Position numbers and translations under genes: made by a program. From a virus, in IMG/VR virus record IMGVR_UViG_3300018009_000009, positions 1-37,763 of that record: a stretch of 37,763 nt of DNA. One strand, written 5' to 3'. Below, one piece after another: positions 297-37,763 of this stretch (its first letter is position 1; each line of letters starts with the position of its first letter). The notes below the pieces were generated by a model. It saw only the letters and a program-made list of their open reading frames with translations, was not told the DNA's origin and did not search any database.

Positions 297-352
297 TCAA
301 ACCATCACGAGCGTGGGCTGCGTTACGGTTAATGAAATTCGACACGCAAAAG

Positions 353-378
353 AAAACCCACACTTTCGCGCGGGCTTT
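353..378 (-). terminator. Intrinsic terminator after the leftward gene
   Basis: Read on the minus strand this is an 11-bp stem (three G-U pairs) with a GAAA tetraloop, followed by a T-rich tail. It lies about 48 bases past the stop of the leftward gene at 426-1046. The plus strand is also T-rich after the stem (CTTTCTTTATCTCTTTT), so it may work in both directions. Confidence 0.7.
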
Positions 379-383
379 CTTTA

Positions 384-419
384 TCTCTTTTGTCACGTTC
401 GCCAAACGCCCAAGGGCGC
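384..419 (-). promoter_or_regulatory. Stem-loop element, copy A (minus orientation)
   Basis: Read on the minus strand: stem GCGCCC-TT-GGGCGT, then TTGGCGAACGTGACAAAAGA. The same arrangement occurs on the plus strand at 1415-1468 and 1738-1790, and in a diverged form at 2338-2388. This copy lies between the stop of the leftward gene and its terminator. Confidence 0.5.
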
Positions 420-425
420 TCAGCG

Positions 426-1046
426 TCAGGCGGTCAACGCCTTGGTTCCGGCGATAAAGCCCTCAATGACGTGGCGCGCGTCGAATGTCAAAACCTTGGC
501 GTTTTCGTTTTCAAAGCGTGAGAGCATGGCCGCGAGCTGGCCCATGAACGCGATGACACTGGCATTGTCAGCACATTTCTCAATGCGCACGTTATCAGCG
601 TTGAGCGCGACTTTCGCATCTTTGGTAACCGGCGCGTCAACAGGCGCTTTCACGTGGCGCGCGCCGCCGCGCTTGTCAGGATTGACGATTTCAGCCTGCG
701 AAGCAAGCCTATTCCAATGCTTTTCGGCGGCCCGAACCGTGTCATGTTGTGCTTTCGTGCGATAGCCCGCGACTCCTACTTTCTTGTCAGTGAAGGGCTT
801 GAGGCCAATGATGCTAGCAGCCTCATCCTGCTTAATGCCAGTAGCAGCGCAAAGCCGGCCTTCGACATAAGCGCCACGCGAGTTCGCCCAAACGATAATA
901 TAAGCAGCCTCATCGAGATCGGCAAGCGCATTGGTGATGAGAGCGATGGTAGCAGCACGCGCCACTTCGAAGCGCACGAACGATGCGCCTTCCGTCTTAG
1001 CGGCGGAGAAAACGCGAGCGGCGAGATTGTCAGTGAGAACGGCCAT
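426..1046 (-). CDS. Hypothetical protein, leftward
   Basis: A 206-residue protein that I do not recognise. It is soluble by appearance, Ala-rich and mixed helical, with no signal peptide or membrane segment. The C-terminal half is basic then acidic around residues 120-160 (DKRGGARHVK). The start is supported by an AGGGG Shine-Dalgarno sequence 7 bases before ATG. It is the only leftward gene at this end. It has a plausible promoter (1145-1173) and terminator (353-378), and its 5' region is flanked by two identical palindromes, so it looks like a separately regulated single-gene unit, perhaps early. A regulator is possible from context, but no helix-turn-helix is obvious. The opposite-strand reading frame (94-765) is a shadow. 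Confidence 0.75.
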   Translation of the reverse strand: MAVLTDNLAARVFSAAKTEGASFVRFEVARAATIALITNALADLDEAAYIIVWANSRGAYVEGRLCAATGIKQDEAASIIGLKPFTDKKVGVAGYRTKAQHDTVRAAEKHWNRLASQAEIVNPDKRGGARHVKAPVDAPVTKDAKVALNADNVRIEKCADNASVIAFMGQLAAMLSRFENENAKVLTFDARHVIEGFIAGTKALTA

Positions 1047-1070
1047 GATAAACCCCTGTTAGTTAGGTGA

Positions 1071-1099
1071 CGTTATGTTTGGGCCATCATGGCCCAAAG
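1071..1099. promoter_or_regulatory. Operator-like palindrome, copy 1
   Basis: A 21-bp perfect palindrome at 1078-1098 (arm TTTGGGCCAT, central C, then the reverse complement of the arm) inside a 29-bp repeat that recurs at 1178-1206. This copy lies between the leftward promoter and the start codon at 1046, where a bound protein would block transcription. Confidence 0.6.
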
Positions 1100-1144
1100 C
1101 CCACTAGGGCAGGTCAGCACCGCGCTAACCCCTCAACTATCCCT

Positions 1145-1173
1145 ATAGTCGCATAGATCGCAGGCAATGTCAA
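1145..1173 (-). promoter_or_regulatory. Sigma-70-like promoter for the leftward gene
   Basis: On the minus strand a perfect -35 TTGACA (1168-1173) is followed by a 17-bp spacer and GACTAT (1145-1150), a weak -10 matching 3 of 6 consensus bases. An 18-bp spacer gives ACTATA. It points at the leftward gene starting at 1046 and lies between the two palindromes. Confidence 0.5.
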
Positions 1174-1177
1174 CAGT

Positions 1178-1206
1178 CGTTATGTTTGGGCCATCATGGC
1201 CCAAAG
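1178..1206. promoter_or_regulatory. Operator-like palindrome, copy 2
   Basis: The second copy of the 29-bp repeat, with the 21-bp palindrome at 1185-1205. It ends up just upstream of the leftward -35 box. The centre-to-centre distance to copy 1 is 107 bp, close to ten helical turns, which would suit looping by a dimeric repressor. Confidence 0.6.
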
Positions 1207-1228
1207 GCAATTCAAAGATTGCTTTTTC

Positions 1229-1265
1229 GGGGAGGCAAAGGGGCGGAGGGGGGTTTGGGGAGGGG
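1229..1265 (+). other. G-quadruplex motif
   Basis: Five runs of at least four G lie on the plus strand: 1229-1232, 1240-1243, 1248-1253, 1257-1260 and 1262-1265, with linkers of 7, 4, 3 and 1 bases. This meets strict intramolecular quadruplex rules. It lies in the gene-free interval between the leftward gene and the rightward late genes. An AT-rich block (1286-1315, containing TATATAAAAT) follows. Confidence 0.65.
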
Positions 1266-1414
1266 CTAGGCTCGGGCATTGCCCGTCACATATATAAAAT
1301 ACCTACTTTTTTCAAGATACATCGTACACGTTAGTACCCTTCAATTATACCCCATCCTCGTGGCTTGCTCGTGCTCGGCCTCAGCCTCAGGCCTGCGCTC
1401 TTGCGCGCGTCACC

Positions 1415-1468
1415 GAACATCACCGAGCCATAACGCCCAAGGGCGTTTGGCGAGCGTGACAAAAGAGA
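1415..1468 (+). promoter_or_regulatory. Stem-loop element, copy B
   Basis: AACATCACCGAGCC, then stem ACGCCC-AA-GGGCGT (1433-1446), then TTGGCGAGCGTGACAAAAGA. It is nearly identical to copy C at 1738-1790. The outer stem pair is A-T here and C-G in copy C, a compensatory change that supports a real paired structure. Confidence 0.6.
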
Positions 1469-1519
1469 AAGAGAAAAAATTTTGTGTGCAAAATCAACAC
1501 CATATCCACCATCCTAGTG

Positions 1520-1535
1520 TGGCACATATCTTGCA
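1520..1535 (+). promoter_or_regulatory. Sigma-54-like (-24/-12) promoter
   Basis: TGGCAC, five bases, TTGCA. The invariant GG and GC are separated by exactly 10 bases, as the RpoN consensus requires. Transcription would start near 1546 and run rightward into the leader ORF and terminase genes. The stem-loop at 1433-1446 sits about 100 bp upstream, within the usual enhancer range, but no known activator site is recognisable. Confidence 0.45.
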
Positions 1536-1607
1536 ATCGCGCGTGGGCGCGCAGGCGTATAAAGAAAGACACCCACACCCTTGACCTGCACACCCGTGGA
1601 GGTTACC

Positions 1608-1781
1608 ATGCTCGCACAACATTGGGGAATGTTGAGGCTGATCTCTGTGGACATGGGGAGAAAGCAACCAAGGGCGGTCCTGCCATCGGGGCCGCCCTTG
1701 TGTTTTTGCAGGATCAAAGTTACTGTGGAGGCACCCAAACATCACCGAGCCACACCGCCCAAGGGCGGTTGGCGAACGTGA
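1608..1781 (+). CDS. Possible short leader ORF
   Basis: ATG preceded by a full GGAGG at 1598-1602 with 5-base spacing, giving 57 residues (MLAQHWGMLR...PKGGWRT). I recognise no family. The frame runs through the terminator at 1669-1707 and the stem-loop at 1738-1790, which is unusual for an ordinary protein gene. Either a leader peptide is translated into an attenuator, or the ribosome site is fortuitous. The good Shine-Dalgarno sequence is the main support. Confidence 0.3.
   Translation: MLAQHWGMLRLISVDMGRKQPRAVLPSGPPLCFCRIKVTVEAPKHHRATPPKGGWRT
1669..1707 (+). terminator. Intrinsic terminator before terS
   Basis: A 9-bp perfect stem CAAGGGCGG / CCGCCCTTG (1669-1677 with 1692-1700), a 14-base loop, then TGTTTTT. 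It lies upstream of the first packaging gene, so late transcription from upstream must read through it or restart beyond it. Confidence 0.7.
1718..1725 (+). repeat. AGTTACTG motif, intergenic
   Basis: One of 12 exact copies of CAGTAACT/AGTTACTG in the window. It lies directly after the terminator and runs into TGGAGG, about 75 bases before the terS start. Confidence 0.5.
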
Positions 1782-1790
1782 CCAAAGAGA
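1738..1790 (+). promoter_or_regulatory. Stem-loop element, copy C (terS leader)
   Basis: Stem CCGCCC-AA-GGGCGG (1755-1768) followed by TTGGCGAACGTGACCAAAGA. It ends 10 bases before the terS ATG, so it would form the 5' end of the terS ribosome-binding region. Confidence 0.6.
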
Positions 1791-1800
1791 GCGCTGAGCG

Positions 1801-2256
1801 ATGGACACCGACTTCGACCCTGCCGGCCTCGGCTGGCCACCCACACTCCCGCTGGAGATTGCCATGGCTGAGATGCCGGTGCGCGAGATATGCGAGAGCT
1901 ATGGCCTGACCCGTGACGACTGGAAGCGGTTGAAGACCGACGAGAAGTTCATCGCCCAAGTGGAGCGTTACCGCGAAGAGCTTATGAAGGACGGCGTGTC
2001 CTTCCAGATGAAGGCTCGGCTACAGGCTGAGGTGCTCCTCAAAGAAAGCTGGCGCATGATCCACGCAACGGATGCGCAGGTGCCACCGGCGGTCAAGGCC
2101 GACCTCATCAAGAGCACCATGAAGTGGGCGGGTGTGGATCAGAGCGCCAAGGCGGCTGCGATGGTGCAGGCCCCGGCCCTGCTGATTAACATCCAGTTCG
2201 CGGGCAAGCCGCCGAGCTTCGCCCCGACCATTGAGGCCAAGGCCATAGAGGCCTAA
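1801..2256 (+). CDS. Terminase small subunit (probable)
   Basis: A 151-residue protein directly before the large terminase. Residues about 18-45 (EIAMAEMPVREICESYGLTR) read as a helix-turn-helix of the kind found in phage small terminases, followed by long helices (about 50-115) suited to ring assembly and a short beta-like C-terminus. Small terminase binds the packaging site and hands DNA to the large subunit motor. The call rests on position, size and predicted fold, since small subunits diverge quickly. The start is ATG after an AGAGAG purine stretch that belongs to stem-loop element C. Five 16-bp tandem repeats follow the stop and could be its binding site. Confidence 0.7.
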   Translation: MDTDFDPAGLGWPPTLPLEIAMAEMPVREICESYGLTRDDWKRLKTDEKFIAQVERYREELMKDGVSFQMKARLQAEVLLKESWRMIHATDAQVPPAVKADLIKSTMKWAGVDQSAKAAAMVQAPALLINIQFAGKPPSFAPTIEAKAIEA

Positions 2257-2257
2257 T

Positions 2258-2337
2258 GTCACTCCACCCGCGCGTCACTCCACCCACGCGTCACTCCACC
2301 CGCGCGTCACTCCACCCGCGCGTCACTCCACCCGCGC
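2258..2337 (+). repeat. Five 16-bp tandem repeats between terS and terL
   Basis: Five head-to-tail copies of GTCACTCCACCCGCGC (2258-2273, 2274-2289, 2290-2305, 2306-2321, 2322-2337). All are identical except one G-to-A change in copy 2. The unit is not a multiple of three and lies outside any gene. The position suggests a packaging (pac or cos) or terminase-binding site, but it could also be an expanded regulatory repeat. Confidence 0.75.
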
Positions 2338-2388
2338 GAGACCAACGCCTTGAAGGCGTTGTCGAGCAAGGGGAATAAAAGAGAGAGA
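2338..2388 (+). promoter_or_regulatory. Stem-loop element, copy D (terL leader)
   Basis: Diverged copy of the stem-loop element: perfect 8-bp inverted repeat AACGCCTT-G-AAGGCGTT (2344-2360), then GTCGAGCAAGG and AATAAAAGAGAGAG, ending just before the terL ATG at 2395. The order stem, CGAGC, AAAAGAGA matches copies B and C. Confidence 0.5.
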
Positions 2389-2394
2389 ATAAAA

Positions 2395-3885
2395 ATGACC
2401 TCAATCATTGACTATAAGCCACCGCCGACGATTGAGCAGTTCATCGTGGATTACACGCCGGGCGCGCTGTTCTACGACTGGGTGGTTGGCCCCGTAGGGT
2501 CCGGCAAGACCACCGGGCTGTTCTTCAAGCTGGTGTATCTAGCCAGTCTCCAGTCACCCTCCCGCGATGGCGTCAGACGCTCACGCGCGGTGATCGTGCG
2601 TAACACCATGCCTCAGCTCAAGGACACCACCATCGTGTCGTGGAGCTACTGGTTCAAGGAGGGCGAGGCTGGTGAGTGGAACTTGACGGATAGGACGTTC
2701 ACGCTCCGGTTCGGCGACGTGGAGTGCGTGGTGCTGTTCCGCCCGCTCGATACGCCGGATGACGTGCAGCGCGTGCTGTCACTGGAGGTGAGCTTCGCCA
2801 TCATCGATGAGTTCGTGCAGATCAGGAAAGAGATTGTCGAAGCGCTGTCGGCGCGTCTCGGTCGTTACAAGCTCCCTGACGGCACCAAGCCCACCATCTG
2901 GGGCATGTGGGGTTCGTCCAACCCCTCGACGGAAGATAACTGGTGGTACGACTACCTGAATGACCCTGACACCTGCGAGACCATCGACCTAACGCGTGAC
3001 GACCCGGATGTCCTGCGGGCTAGGCGTGTCATGTCCGACGATACACGCAACGTGCGCTACTTTATCCAGCCGTCCGGTCAACGCCCGGAGGCTGAGAACC
3101 TTGAGAACCTGCCGGGTGGGCGGGAGTATTATACGAACCAGATGAAGGGCAAGAGCGAGACGTGGATCAAGCAGTTCGTGGACGCTGAGTGGGGTTACAG
3201 CGTCAGTGGCAAGCCGGTGGTCAACACGTTCAAGCCGGAGCTGCATATCGCCAAGAAGCGCCTCGTCTATAATCCCCTGCTCCCGCTGATCGCTGGTGTG
3301 GACCCCGGCCTTGCTGGCTCGGCGTTCATATTTGGGCAGCAGGACTTGCATGGACGGCTCAACGTGCTGGGGGAGTGCGTGCAGTCGGGCTATGGCGCGG
3401 AGCGGCTTGTGGCTGAGGTGCTTAAGCCCTACACGCGGCGGCGGTTCCCGCAGGCCAACCTGATCCTCGCGCCTGATCCGGCGGCGGCGAACCGCTCGCA
3501 GAACGACGAGAAGCAGGTGGTGCAGACACTCAGGAAGCACTACCCGGTGAGCATCGAGAGCAACAACCGCTTGCCGCTGCGCTTGAACGCCATCGAGCAC
3601 TTCACAACGAGGCTGGTGGATAGCGGCGCTGCCTTCCAGATCGACCCGTGGGAGTGCCCCATCACGGTGCGGGCGCTCAAGGGTGGTTGGCGGTGGGAGA
3701 TCAACGAGAAGAAGAGTATGATCTCCGGCGATGCCCCGGAGAAGAACGCCTATAGCCATCCCGGTGATGCCCTTGGCTATCTGTGCCGATACTTCCACAA
3801 GCAGACAGAACGTGAGTTGCGGTATGGTCCGCAGTCGGCTATATTTCGGCCACCGAGCTTCAAAAACCAGTACACATATCGCTGA
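2395..3885 (+). CDS. terL: Terminase large subunit
   Basis: Packaging motor ATPase and nuclease of 496 residues. Visible motifs are Walker A GPVGSGKTT (32-40), Walker B FAIIDE (134-139), a coupling motif GSSNPS, and a C-terminal RNase H-like nuclease with the acidic residues D303 (AGVDPG), D361 (APDP) and D458 (HPGDALGY). The protein cuts concatemeric DNA and pumps it through the portal. I chose ATG 2395 over the in-frame ATG at 2350 because the upstream 15 codons lie in stem-loop element D and GAGAGAGAAT sits just before 2395. The conserved protein also begins near MTSIIDY. It follows terS after 138 bases of repeats and leader. Confidence 0.93.
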   Translation: MTSIIDYKPPPTIEQFIVDYTPGALFYDWVVGPVGSGKTTGLFFKLVYLASLQSPSRDGVRRSRAVIVRNTMPQLKDTTIVSWSYWFKEGEAGEWNLTDRTFTLRFGDVECVVLFRPLDTPDDVQRVLSLEVSFAIIDEFVQIRKEIVEALSARLGRYKLPDGTKPTIWGMWGSSNPSTEDNWWYDYLNDPDTCETIDLTRDDPDVLRARRVMSDDTRNVRYFIQPSGQRPEAENLENLPGGREYYTNQMKGKSETWIKQFVDAEWGYSVSGKPVVNTFKPELHIAKKRLVYNPLLPLIAGVDPGLAGSAFIFGQQDLHGRLNVLGECVQSGYGAERLVAEVLKPYTRRRFPQANLILAPDPAAANRSQNDEKQVVQTLRKHYPVSIESNNRLPLRLNAIEHFTTRLVDSGAAFQIDPWECPITVRALKGGWRWEINEKKSMISGDAPEKNAYSHPGDALGYLCRYFHKQTERELRYGPQSAIFRPPSFKNQYTYR

Positions 3886-21025: not shown

Positions 21026-22900
21026 GTGCTCGGCTATGACGCCTTCGGCCAACTCGCTATTGGTCAAGCCTATTCGACCACGGTCACCACGAGCGGTGCG
21101 CCGGGTGCGATTGGCCAGTTTGCGTTCGGGCAGCTCACCACGAGCGTGCAGGGCCGCGTGCTTAACGCCTATTTCTTCGATGTCGCGACTGGCGCGTTCG
21201 CAGTAACTGGGGTTGACGCATCGCTGACGCATGGTGTGCCGCTCCGTAGCATGGCGGTGACGCCGGGCACATTCACGCTGGTCGGGGATGCTGCAACCTT
21301 TGAGGACGTGCACACCATTAAGGTGCTTACGACCGCTCCGGGCGCGTTTGTGCTGACCGGGCAGCCGACGACGCTGATCCACACACGCGAGCTGGTGACC
21401 GCGCCTGGGGCGTTCGGGCTGAGCGGTCAACCCACGACGTTCCACCGCAAGTACGCGATCACTGCACAAGCTGGGGCTTTCAGCTTCACAGGGTCTCCCA
21501 CGAACTTCTTGAGGCCGCTACGCAACCTCAAGACCGTGACGGGTGCGTTCACGATCTCTGGGGCGGCATCGTTCACTCTGGTGCGTGAGCTTGCGGTTTC
21601 GACAGGCGCATACTATCTCGCAGGCAATGCGGTTCCGGCGGTCTACCCACCGCTTGTCGCGCGCGGGGGTGCGTTCAGCCTACAATCAAGCCCTGCAACC
21701 ATGACGCGGACGCGTGTGTGGTCGCTTTCGACGGGTGCGTTTGCACTGGCTGGTGCGGCTGCGTTCCTGCTATACCGCCCGTTCAACATCGTGACCGGCA
21801 TGTACGCGTTGACAGGCCAGCCTGCGACCATGACGCGGAAGCGCGTGTTGTCGGCGGTGCCCGGAGCCTTCACATTGGGCGGGGGTGCGGCTGCGTTCGC
21901 GCGCAATCTGGCGGCAGCGCCGGGCGTCTATGTGCTGGGCTCCCAAACTGCCGTGCTGAGCGTGGGCCATGTGCTGACGGCTGCGTCGGGCGCGTTCGCG
22001 CTGGGCTCCCCACTCGCATCCTTGACCCGGACCAAGCTGCCTGCCGTCGATATTTTGGCGGCTGCGTTCGTGCTGACAGGCCAGCCCGCCACGTTCAAGA
22101 GGTCGTATGTGCTGTCGGCCACACCCGGCACGTTCGTGCTGGGCGGCTCTGCGACGCTCCTGCGCCCCCGGACGCTCTCGGCCACACCCGGCACGTTCGT
22201 ACTGGGTGGTCTGGCTGGGCTGCAAGTGACTTATGGCATCATGGACGACCCCACGAGATACGCCCTTGCTGGGCAGCCGGCGGGCCTGCTGGCTGGCCGC
22301 GTGCTGGCTCCGGCCCCGGCCTCGGTCGCACTGGCGGGGCAGCCAGCCTCTCTGGCGGTTCTGCGGACGCTCTACGCCCTACCGGGCGCGTTTGTGCTGA
22401 CCGGGCAGCCGACGTCGAACCAGCGGGCGATCACGCTGCAAACCCTCACCGGGGCGTTCGATCTGCTGGGGCGGCCAGCGTCGCCGGCACGGGCCTACGA
22501 GCTGGACGCGGCAGCAGGGGCGTTCCGTCTCGGTGATTACGCAATCTCCATGAACGTGGCACGCAAATTGCAGGTCGGGGGCGGGGCGTTCGCAGTAACT
22601 GGGGTGGGTGCAGCGTTCTCACGCAAGCGGGTGCTTCTCGCCGGCCCCGGCGTGTTTCATCTCGACGGGGCAAGCCTTGTCGGGTATGGTGCGGTCGGTC
22701 GTGCACAAGCGGACTTCGCGCTGGTGGCTCGCACAGAGGTGACATTCATGGACCCGAAGACCAGCGTCGATCTGGAACCTGTGGCGGACGTGGTGCTCGC
22801 GCTTGCGGTCCCCAGCATGTCTGTGAGCTTCGCGGCACAAGGCAGCACCTTCGTGGAGCTGCACGACGCGGCCCTGACGGTCATGTTTAGCGAGGCATAA
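21026..22900 (+). CDS. Repeat-built tail fibre-like protein
   Basis: 624 residues, starting at GTG 21026 after AAGGGG. Most of the protein is about 20 repeats of roughly 24 residues with core GAFxLTGQPATxxRxRxLxA, likely a beta-solenoid or beta-sandwich stalk. The first residues (LGYDAFGQLAIGQA) resemble the start of the protein at 26930, which also carries the GAFAL repeat. Two repeats carry the CAGTAACTG DNA motif (21201, 22593). Structural fibre or baseplate-like extension is inferred from repeats and neighbours. Confidence 0.65.
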   Translation: MLGYDAFGQLAIGQAYSTTVTTSGAPGAIGQFAFGQLTTSVQGRVLNAYFFDVATGAFAVTGVDASLTHGVPLRSMAVTPGTFTLVGDAATFEDVHTIKVLTTAPGAFVLTGQPTTLIHTRELVTAPGAFGLSGQPTTFHRKYAITAQAGAFSFTGSPTNFLRPLRNLKTVTGAFTISGAASFTLVRELAVSTGAYYLAGNAVPAVYPPLVARGGAFSLQSSPATMTRTRVWSLSTGAFALAGAAAFLLYRPFNIVTGMYALTGQPATMTRKRVLSAVPGAFTLGGGAAAFARNLAAAPGVYVLGSQTAVLSVGHVLTAASGAFALGSPLASLTRTKLPAVDILAAAFVLTGQPATFKRSYVLSATPGTFVLGGSATLLRPRTLSATPGTFVLGGLAGLQVTYGIMDDPTRYALAGQPAGLLAGRVLAPAPASVALAGQPASLAVLRTLYALPGAFVLTGQPTSNQRAITLQTLTGAFDLLGRPASPARAYELDAAAGAFRLGDYAISMNVARKLQVGGGAFAVTGVGAAFSRKRVLLAGPGVFHLDGASLVGYGAVGRAQADFALVARTEVTFMDPKTSVDLEPVADVVLALAVPSMSVSFAAQGSTFVELHDAALTVMFSEA

Positions 22901-37523: not shown

Positions 37524-37763
37524 TCAATCGTCGTCCCACTCGCCGAGCAGAGCCTCGACATTCTGGGGGGTCGCAACCGGCTTGACGGGCTTGGCCGGCG
37601 CATCCTCATCGTCCTCCACGACGACGGGCTTCTTCTTCTTGACCACGACCGGCGCATCCTCATCGTCCTCCACGACGACGGGCTTCTTCTTCTTGACCAC
37701 GACCGGCGCATCCTCATCGTCCTCCACGACGACGGGCTTCTTCTTCTTGACCACGACCGGCGC
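37524..37763 (-). CDS. Charge-repeat protein, C-terminal part (partial)
   Basis: The reading frame stays open to the window edge, so the N-terminus lies to the right. The visible part is at least three copies of an 18-residue unit VVVKKKKPVVVEDDEDAP, then PAKPVKPVATPQNVEALLGEWDDD. Basic (KKKK) and acidic (EDDED) blocks alternate, and the acidic aromatic-containing end (EWDDD) resembles the tails of phage single-stranded DNA-binding proteins. That is a hypothesis only. Stop TGA at 37524-37526. Confidence 0.6.
   Translation of the reverse strand, partial: APVVVKKKKPVVVEDDEDAPVVVKKKKPVVVEDDEDAPVVVKKKKPVVVEDDEDAPAKPVKPVATPQNVEALLGEWDDD
37597..37763 (-). repeat. 54-bp tandem repeats
   Basis: Units starting GGCGCATCCTCATCGTCCTC at 37597, 37651, 37705 and 37759 (the last cut by the window end), each 54 bp and near identical, encoding the 18-residue charge repeat. 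The copy number may change by recombination. Confidence 0.85.

Follow-up and report, generated by a model that had tools for sequence, protein, structure and literature searches.

Hairpins that control phage mRNAs, such as the R17/MS2 replicase operator and the T4 gene 32 leader, lie at the ribosome-binding site or immediately 5' of it. The nut site of lambda consists of boxA followed by the boxB hairpin. Another described element, the put RNA of HK022, is about 70 nt long, contains two adjacent stem-loops and lies downstream of the early promoters; RNAs of this type are defined by their position upstream of the terminators that they suppress, and they make RNA polymerase terminator-resistant without a phage protein (PMC9378689).

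A repeated element with likeness to each of these systems was present in an uncultured phage, represented by an IMG/VR virus record of 37,763 bases (the window, i.e., the whole stretch of DNA that was analyzed). Its copies A, B, and C consist of a stem-loop and a conserved tail, and a further hairpin, D, is loosely related to them. The C and D hairpins resemble these translational operators and leaders in their placement next to a ribosome-binding site, while A and B are found away from gene starts. As in the nut site, a small GC-rich hairpin with a conserved neighboring stretch is repeated in the genome. However, the tail here lies 3' of the hairpin and not 5', no boxA-like sequence is common to the copies, and no N-like gene was identified. 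By eye, a boxA-like CGCTCTT was seen about 25 nt upstream of B only, and not upstream of C or A. The likeness to putL and putR lies in a repeated stem-loop element of untranslated RNA with leftward and rightward copies, but the element has one stem-loop plus a tail, its three copies occupy mixed positions, and antitermination is hypothetical here.

The window had matches to TerL, a head-tail adaptor and a major head protein. In the TerL comparison, the closest named phage was Pseudomonas phage Rollin (42%), followed by Pelagibacter, BcepC6B, and Rhizobium phages (31-33%), and these matches together point to a podovirus-like phage. One relative, 56% identical in TerL, was located in an alphaproteobacterial metagenome bin. 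Two more contigs belong to the same species (L005 and L009/L010/L036, TerL 100%), L011 is a very near relative (TerL 98%), and the TerL of 24 other contigs was 47-70% identical. L005 was identical to the window over the whole stretch, and the L009/L010/L036 contig showed zero base changes from 340 to 2450. At the right end, 54-bp repeats within an ORF (37595-37763) sit at the very end of the contig, which is therefore probably an assembly break. At the left end, about 1 kb of apparently non-coding sequence (1-300 and L005:1-960) contains many CCACGACG-type repeats, T-run hairpins and an AT run, and this repeat-rich stretch is possibly a replication origin.

Positions of the copies and neighboring signals

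Copies A to D all lie within non-coding sequence. Copy A (384..425, minus strand) comes directly after the stop codon of a leftward gene with unassigned function (426..1046, minus strand), in its 3' UTR, and just before an intrinsic terminator (346..373, minus strand) that was found in the fold of 430-336 of the minus strand. Family searches with this gene gave no hit, and its AlphaFold model was uninformative (pLDDT 36). A sigma-70-like promoter of the gene (TTGACA, CTATAG; ~1173-1142, minus strand) is flanked by identical 29-nt repeats at 1071-1099 and 1178-1206, each with the perfect 21-nt dyad TTTGGGCCATCATGGCCCAAA, and variants of the repeat occur at 188-216 and 274-302. The repeats around the promoter look like an operator pair.

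Copy B (1413..1468, plus strand) has a sigma-70-like promoter (TTGACC-17-TACCAT, 1581..1609, plus strand) about 110 nt downstream and precedes no evident gene. Copy C (1735..1790, plus strand) starts 28 nt after a strong intrinsic terminator (1669..1707, plus strand; 14 pairs followed by TGTTTTT) and ends 10 nt before the start codon of terS. The terminator 5' arm (1668-1678) and the copy C 3' arm (1759-1769) have the 11-nt sequence CCAAGGGCGGT in common. The terminase small subunit gene terS (1801..2256, plus strand) was assigned from its position before terL and from homologues that precede terL in about 15 relatives; its sole family match was phrog_36773, of unknown function (1e-5). The large subunit gene terL (2395..3885, plus strand) matched phrog_2 (4e-22). 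Between the two genes, at 2258-2338, there are five tandem 16-nt repeats of GTCACTCCACCCGCGC, and this array is absent in L011. Copy D (2336..2367, plus strand) follows. C and D lie 10-30 nt ahead of start codons in the terS and terL leaders.

The initial annotation had linked the element to packaging genes. This applies to C and D, but not to A, which is in a 3' UTR, or to B, which is at no gene start. With A in a 3' UTR, B upstream of a promoter and C before terS, there is therefore no single gene-start role for all copies.

Stem-loop and conserved tail in copies A, B, and C

Copies A, B, and C are real, and chance is ruled out. The 20-nt tail GGCGANCGTGACNAAAGAGA had three matches against 0.03 expected, and zero dinucleotide shuffles reached three. 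Copies B and C were 89% identical across 56 nt, A and B were 88% identical across 43 nt, and the core CGCCCNNGGGCG occurred within the window at sites A, B, and C only. The conserved tail, with the consensus GRACGUGACMAAAGAGA, lies 3' of the stem-loop.

In copy A, the hairpin CGCTGAGCGCC-CTTG-GGCGTTTGGCG (425-400) runs into the tail GGCGAACGTGACAAAAGAGA (403-384). In copy B, a 10-bp stem with one bulge (1427-1451) stands above TCAC at 1420-1423 paired with GTGA at 1456-1459, and the tail follows; the corresponding stem of copy C is at 1749-1773. The extent first assigned to B and C was too short, since both start with ATCACCGAGCC and pair TCAC with GTGA and GCC with GGC. In B and C, this lower stem is separated from the upper one by an internal loop that has GA on each strand.

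The folds were compared with those of shuffled sequences. B, C and D were much more stable than shuffles, with z values of -5.2, -3.2 and -4.8, compared to only -1.7 for A, whose fold had an energy of -24.7 kcal/mol. When A, B, and C were aligned by hand with the structure in mind, they had a common 10-bp stem with one optional bulge and standard pairs at 30/30 positions across these three sequences of one species. As a control, the partner strand was slid by 1-3 positions, and the share of standard pairs was then 27-50%. The exchange of an outer stem pair from A-T in B to C-G in C, as previously annotated, was correct, and the same pair is G-U in A. Two further pairs become wobble in A (C-G to U-G, A-U to G-U). 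Moreover, the 5' arm of A is CGCTGAG instead of GCCATAA in B and C, and still pairs 7/7 using G-U, a pair type available to RNA only; among the seven-mers preceding CGCCC in the window, 4/160 pair as the arm of A does (p ~0.02). Because the copies keep pairing through base changes, with G-U in A, an RNA stem-loop is favored over a linear DNA site. The structure-aware hand alignment of three sequences from one species thus supports an RNA hairpin for A-C, and independent covariation is unavailable because the other contigs of the species show no change across the element region.

The reading that we prefer, with a probability of roughly 45%, is that A-C are a lineage-specific, cis-acting mRNA stem-loop with a recognized tail, for translation or processing. 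We infer that the A-C sites are transcribed. The three copies would then be copies of one RNA element acting within untranslated parts of phage mRNA, formed by the 10-bp bulged stem-loop, the lower stem in B and C and the conserved tail. A putative RNA-binding protein of phage or host, or a processing nuclease, would recognize stem and tail, and this recognition would set the translation start or the stability of the adjoining message. C would target the terS message and A the 3' end of gene 426-1046, while D would be a related or convergent hairpin directly 5' of the terL Shine-Dalgarno sequence. Among the three options of the initial annotation (a promoter, an antitermination site or translational control), RNA-level control was best supported, given the retained pairing, the location of C and D in leaders and the fact that D is duplicated in L011 along with a start codon. 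A stem-loop covering or adjoining the ribosome-binding site was found for C, D and both L011 copies, and not for A and B. Against this reading stand the small number of copies in a single species, the modest values for A in both the pairing test and the fold, the location of B, which may lack transcription, and that of A, so that one translational role does not span all copies. If the RNA reading is true, it adds a small repeated cis-acting RNA touching packaging-gene expression, in a podovirus-like phage group whose regulation has hardly been studied.

Alternative explanations and distribution

The copies may instead be duplex DNA sites for a phage DNA-binding protein, such as TerS at a pac/cos-type site or a regulator at the promoter between B and C. 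We consider this somewhat unlikely. The palindromic core is found at exactly three places of the window, B and C flank the promoter-terminator stretch of terS with A inverted beyond gene 426-1046, and the 20-nt tail is more conserved than the 5' arm, all of which a DNA site would accommodate. However, the DNA palindrome of A is confined to the 5-bp core, and its longer stem requires G-U pairs. Furthermore, the conserved part comprises one arm and a one-sided tail, which is unusual for a dyad-binding protein.

A recent functionless duplication by illegitimate recombination in this repeat-rich region is also unlikely. Many other repeats lie nearby, and no other phage or genome searched had the element, as such an origin would predict. 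Yet the copies differ at 11% of positions while the changed pairs still pair, and conservation is highest in the tail. Outside the species, neither viral contigs, scanned with four patterns, nor genome contigs, scanned with a single one, contained the element, except for D in L011, and a profile-HMM search of loci including most of six relative contigs gave no copies. Within the limits of these collections, the element is specific to this lineage.

Several candidate matches were rejected. No Rfam family scored above its gathering threshold; the only match was RF01519 (CC0196, a Caulobacter sRNA), to which 1722-1770 is similar in GGCACCCA..CATCAC.GA plus a hairpin. Membership was rejected, with 24.7 bits against a threshold of 35, an E value of 0.16 for the whole window and loose matches in 10/14 control genomes as well. 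Exact tail matches in L004, L006-L008 and L057-L065 were in unrelated, mostly open-frame sequence without a hairpin and were attributed to chance, and AAAAGAGAGAGGG before terS in L012 has a different structure and is not homologous. Translated, the tail gives (G)RLA(N/S)VTKE in each of the three copies, but this frame is not part of any likely gene in the window. An antisense interaction between the tail and the 91-nt leader RNA upstream of terS was no better than shuffles (201/300).

Antitermination by a put- or nut-like RNA, in which the nascent stem-loop modifies host RNA polymerase for terminator readthrough, was another option of the initial annotation; it is conceivable but unsupported, and we regard it as very unlikely. 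The divergent pair of leftward A and rightward B resembles putL and putR, with A directly before a terminator and B before the one upstream of terS. In contrast, C follows that terminator, the sole one found just before terS, B lacks a clear promoter immediately upstream, and each copy has a single stem-loop where put RNA has two. A phage-specific promoter was also suggested initially, and a promoter for a phage-encoded RNA polymerase is highly improbable. A short conserved sequence with a purine-rich end is indeed repeated before genes, but transcription from A would start in a 3' UTR and run into a terminator, and a 2100-aa protein had no match among PHROG families or solved structures, e.g., a virion polymerase. 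Moreover, single-subunit RNA polymerase (PF00940) was found neither in the window nor in nine relative contigs; this falls short of proof, since the contigs are maybe incomplete and the control genomes also gave no hit.

The unit before terS and copy D

Directly upstream of terS, the stretch 1581-1707 comprises the sigma-70-like promoter, a 91-nt leader and the strong terminator. A sigma-54 promoter at 1520 (TGGCAC-N5-TTGCA) was also considered and rejected, since an equally good match in a coding region at 22557 places it at chance level. Similar promoter sites were present upstream of terS in relatives, and the same complete layout was found in L020, L024, and L025. A promoter and terminator within 260 nt, less than 400 nt upstream of terS, occurred in 4/11 phages compared to 0.0115 expected per window. 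This expectation is a whole-contig rate in which coding and non-coding sequence are pooled, and it exaggerates the contrast. A good promoter upstream of terS was also present in L012 and L013, with hairpins that have no strict T run.

The promoter-leader-terminator layout before terS is like that of the lambda pR'-tR' late-gene gate. Judged from this analogy, the unit resembles such a gate or a phage small RNA, and it may control the packaging genes in this phage group. Its presence in relatives leads to the testable hypothesis that a terminator is the control point of late genes, as it is in lambda. A broader proposal appears quite unlikely, namely that the three stem-loops form a new family of phage regulatory RNAs which, together with this unit, gates packaging genes by an RNA-binding or antitermination mechanism that is also new, in a phage that (probably) infects Alphaproteobacteria.

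The four sites had initially been listed as copies of one element; A, B, and C were confirmed at their sites, while D is a looser case. D folds as GC, GA/GA, GAC/GTC, a bulge and AACGCC/GGCGTT, with GA/GA as an internal loop of the stem, and the Shine-Dalgarno-like AAGGGG lies between this hairpin and terL. Its similarity to B was reached by 0/2000 shuffles, compared to 355/2000 for C and 172/2000 for A, so that it exceeded shuffles only for B. The motif AAAAGAGA, which had been taken as shared, is not homologous to that of A-C, and its stretch is absent from both D copies of L011. There, the AGAGAGAATAAAA stretch is missing, and AAGGAGAATAAA is followed almost directly by the start codon. D is most plausibly a start-codon module that is loosely related to A-C, and its likeness to B would be one of shape or convergence. 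In L011, the D hairpin with its Shine-Dalgarno sequence occurs twice, before a ~24-codon ORF and before terL, and both copies have a D-like fold, the second less perfect. This short ORF is membrane-like and is inserted between terS and terL (L011:190-390) with the second D module.
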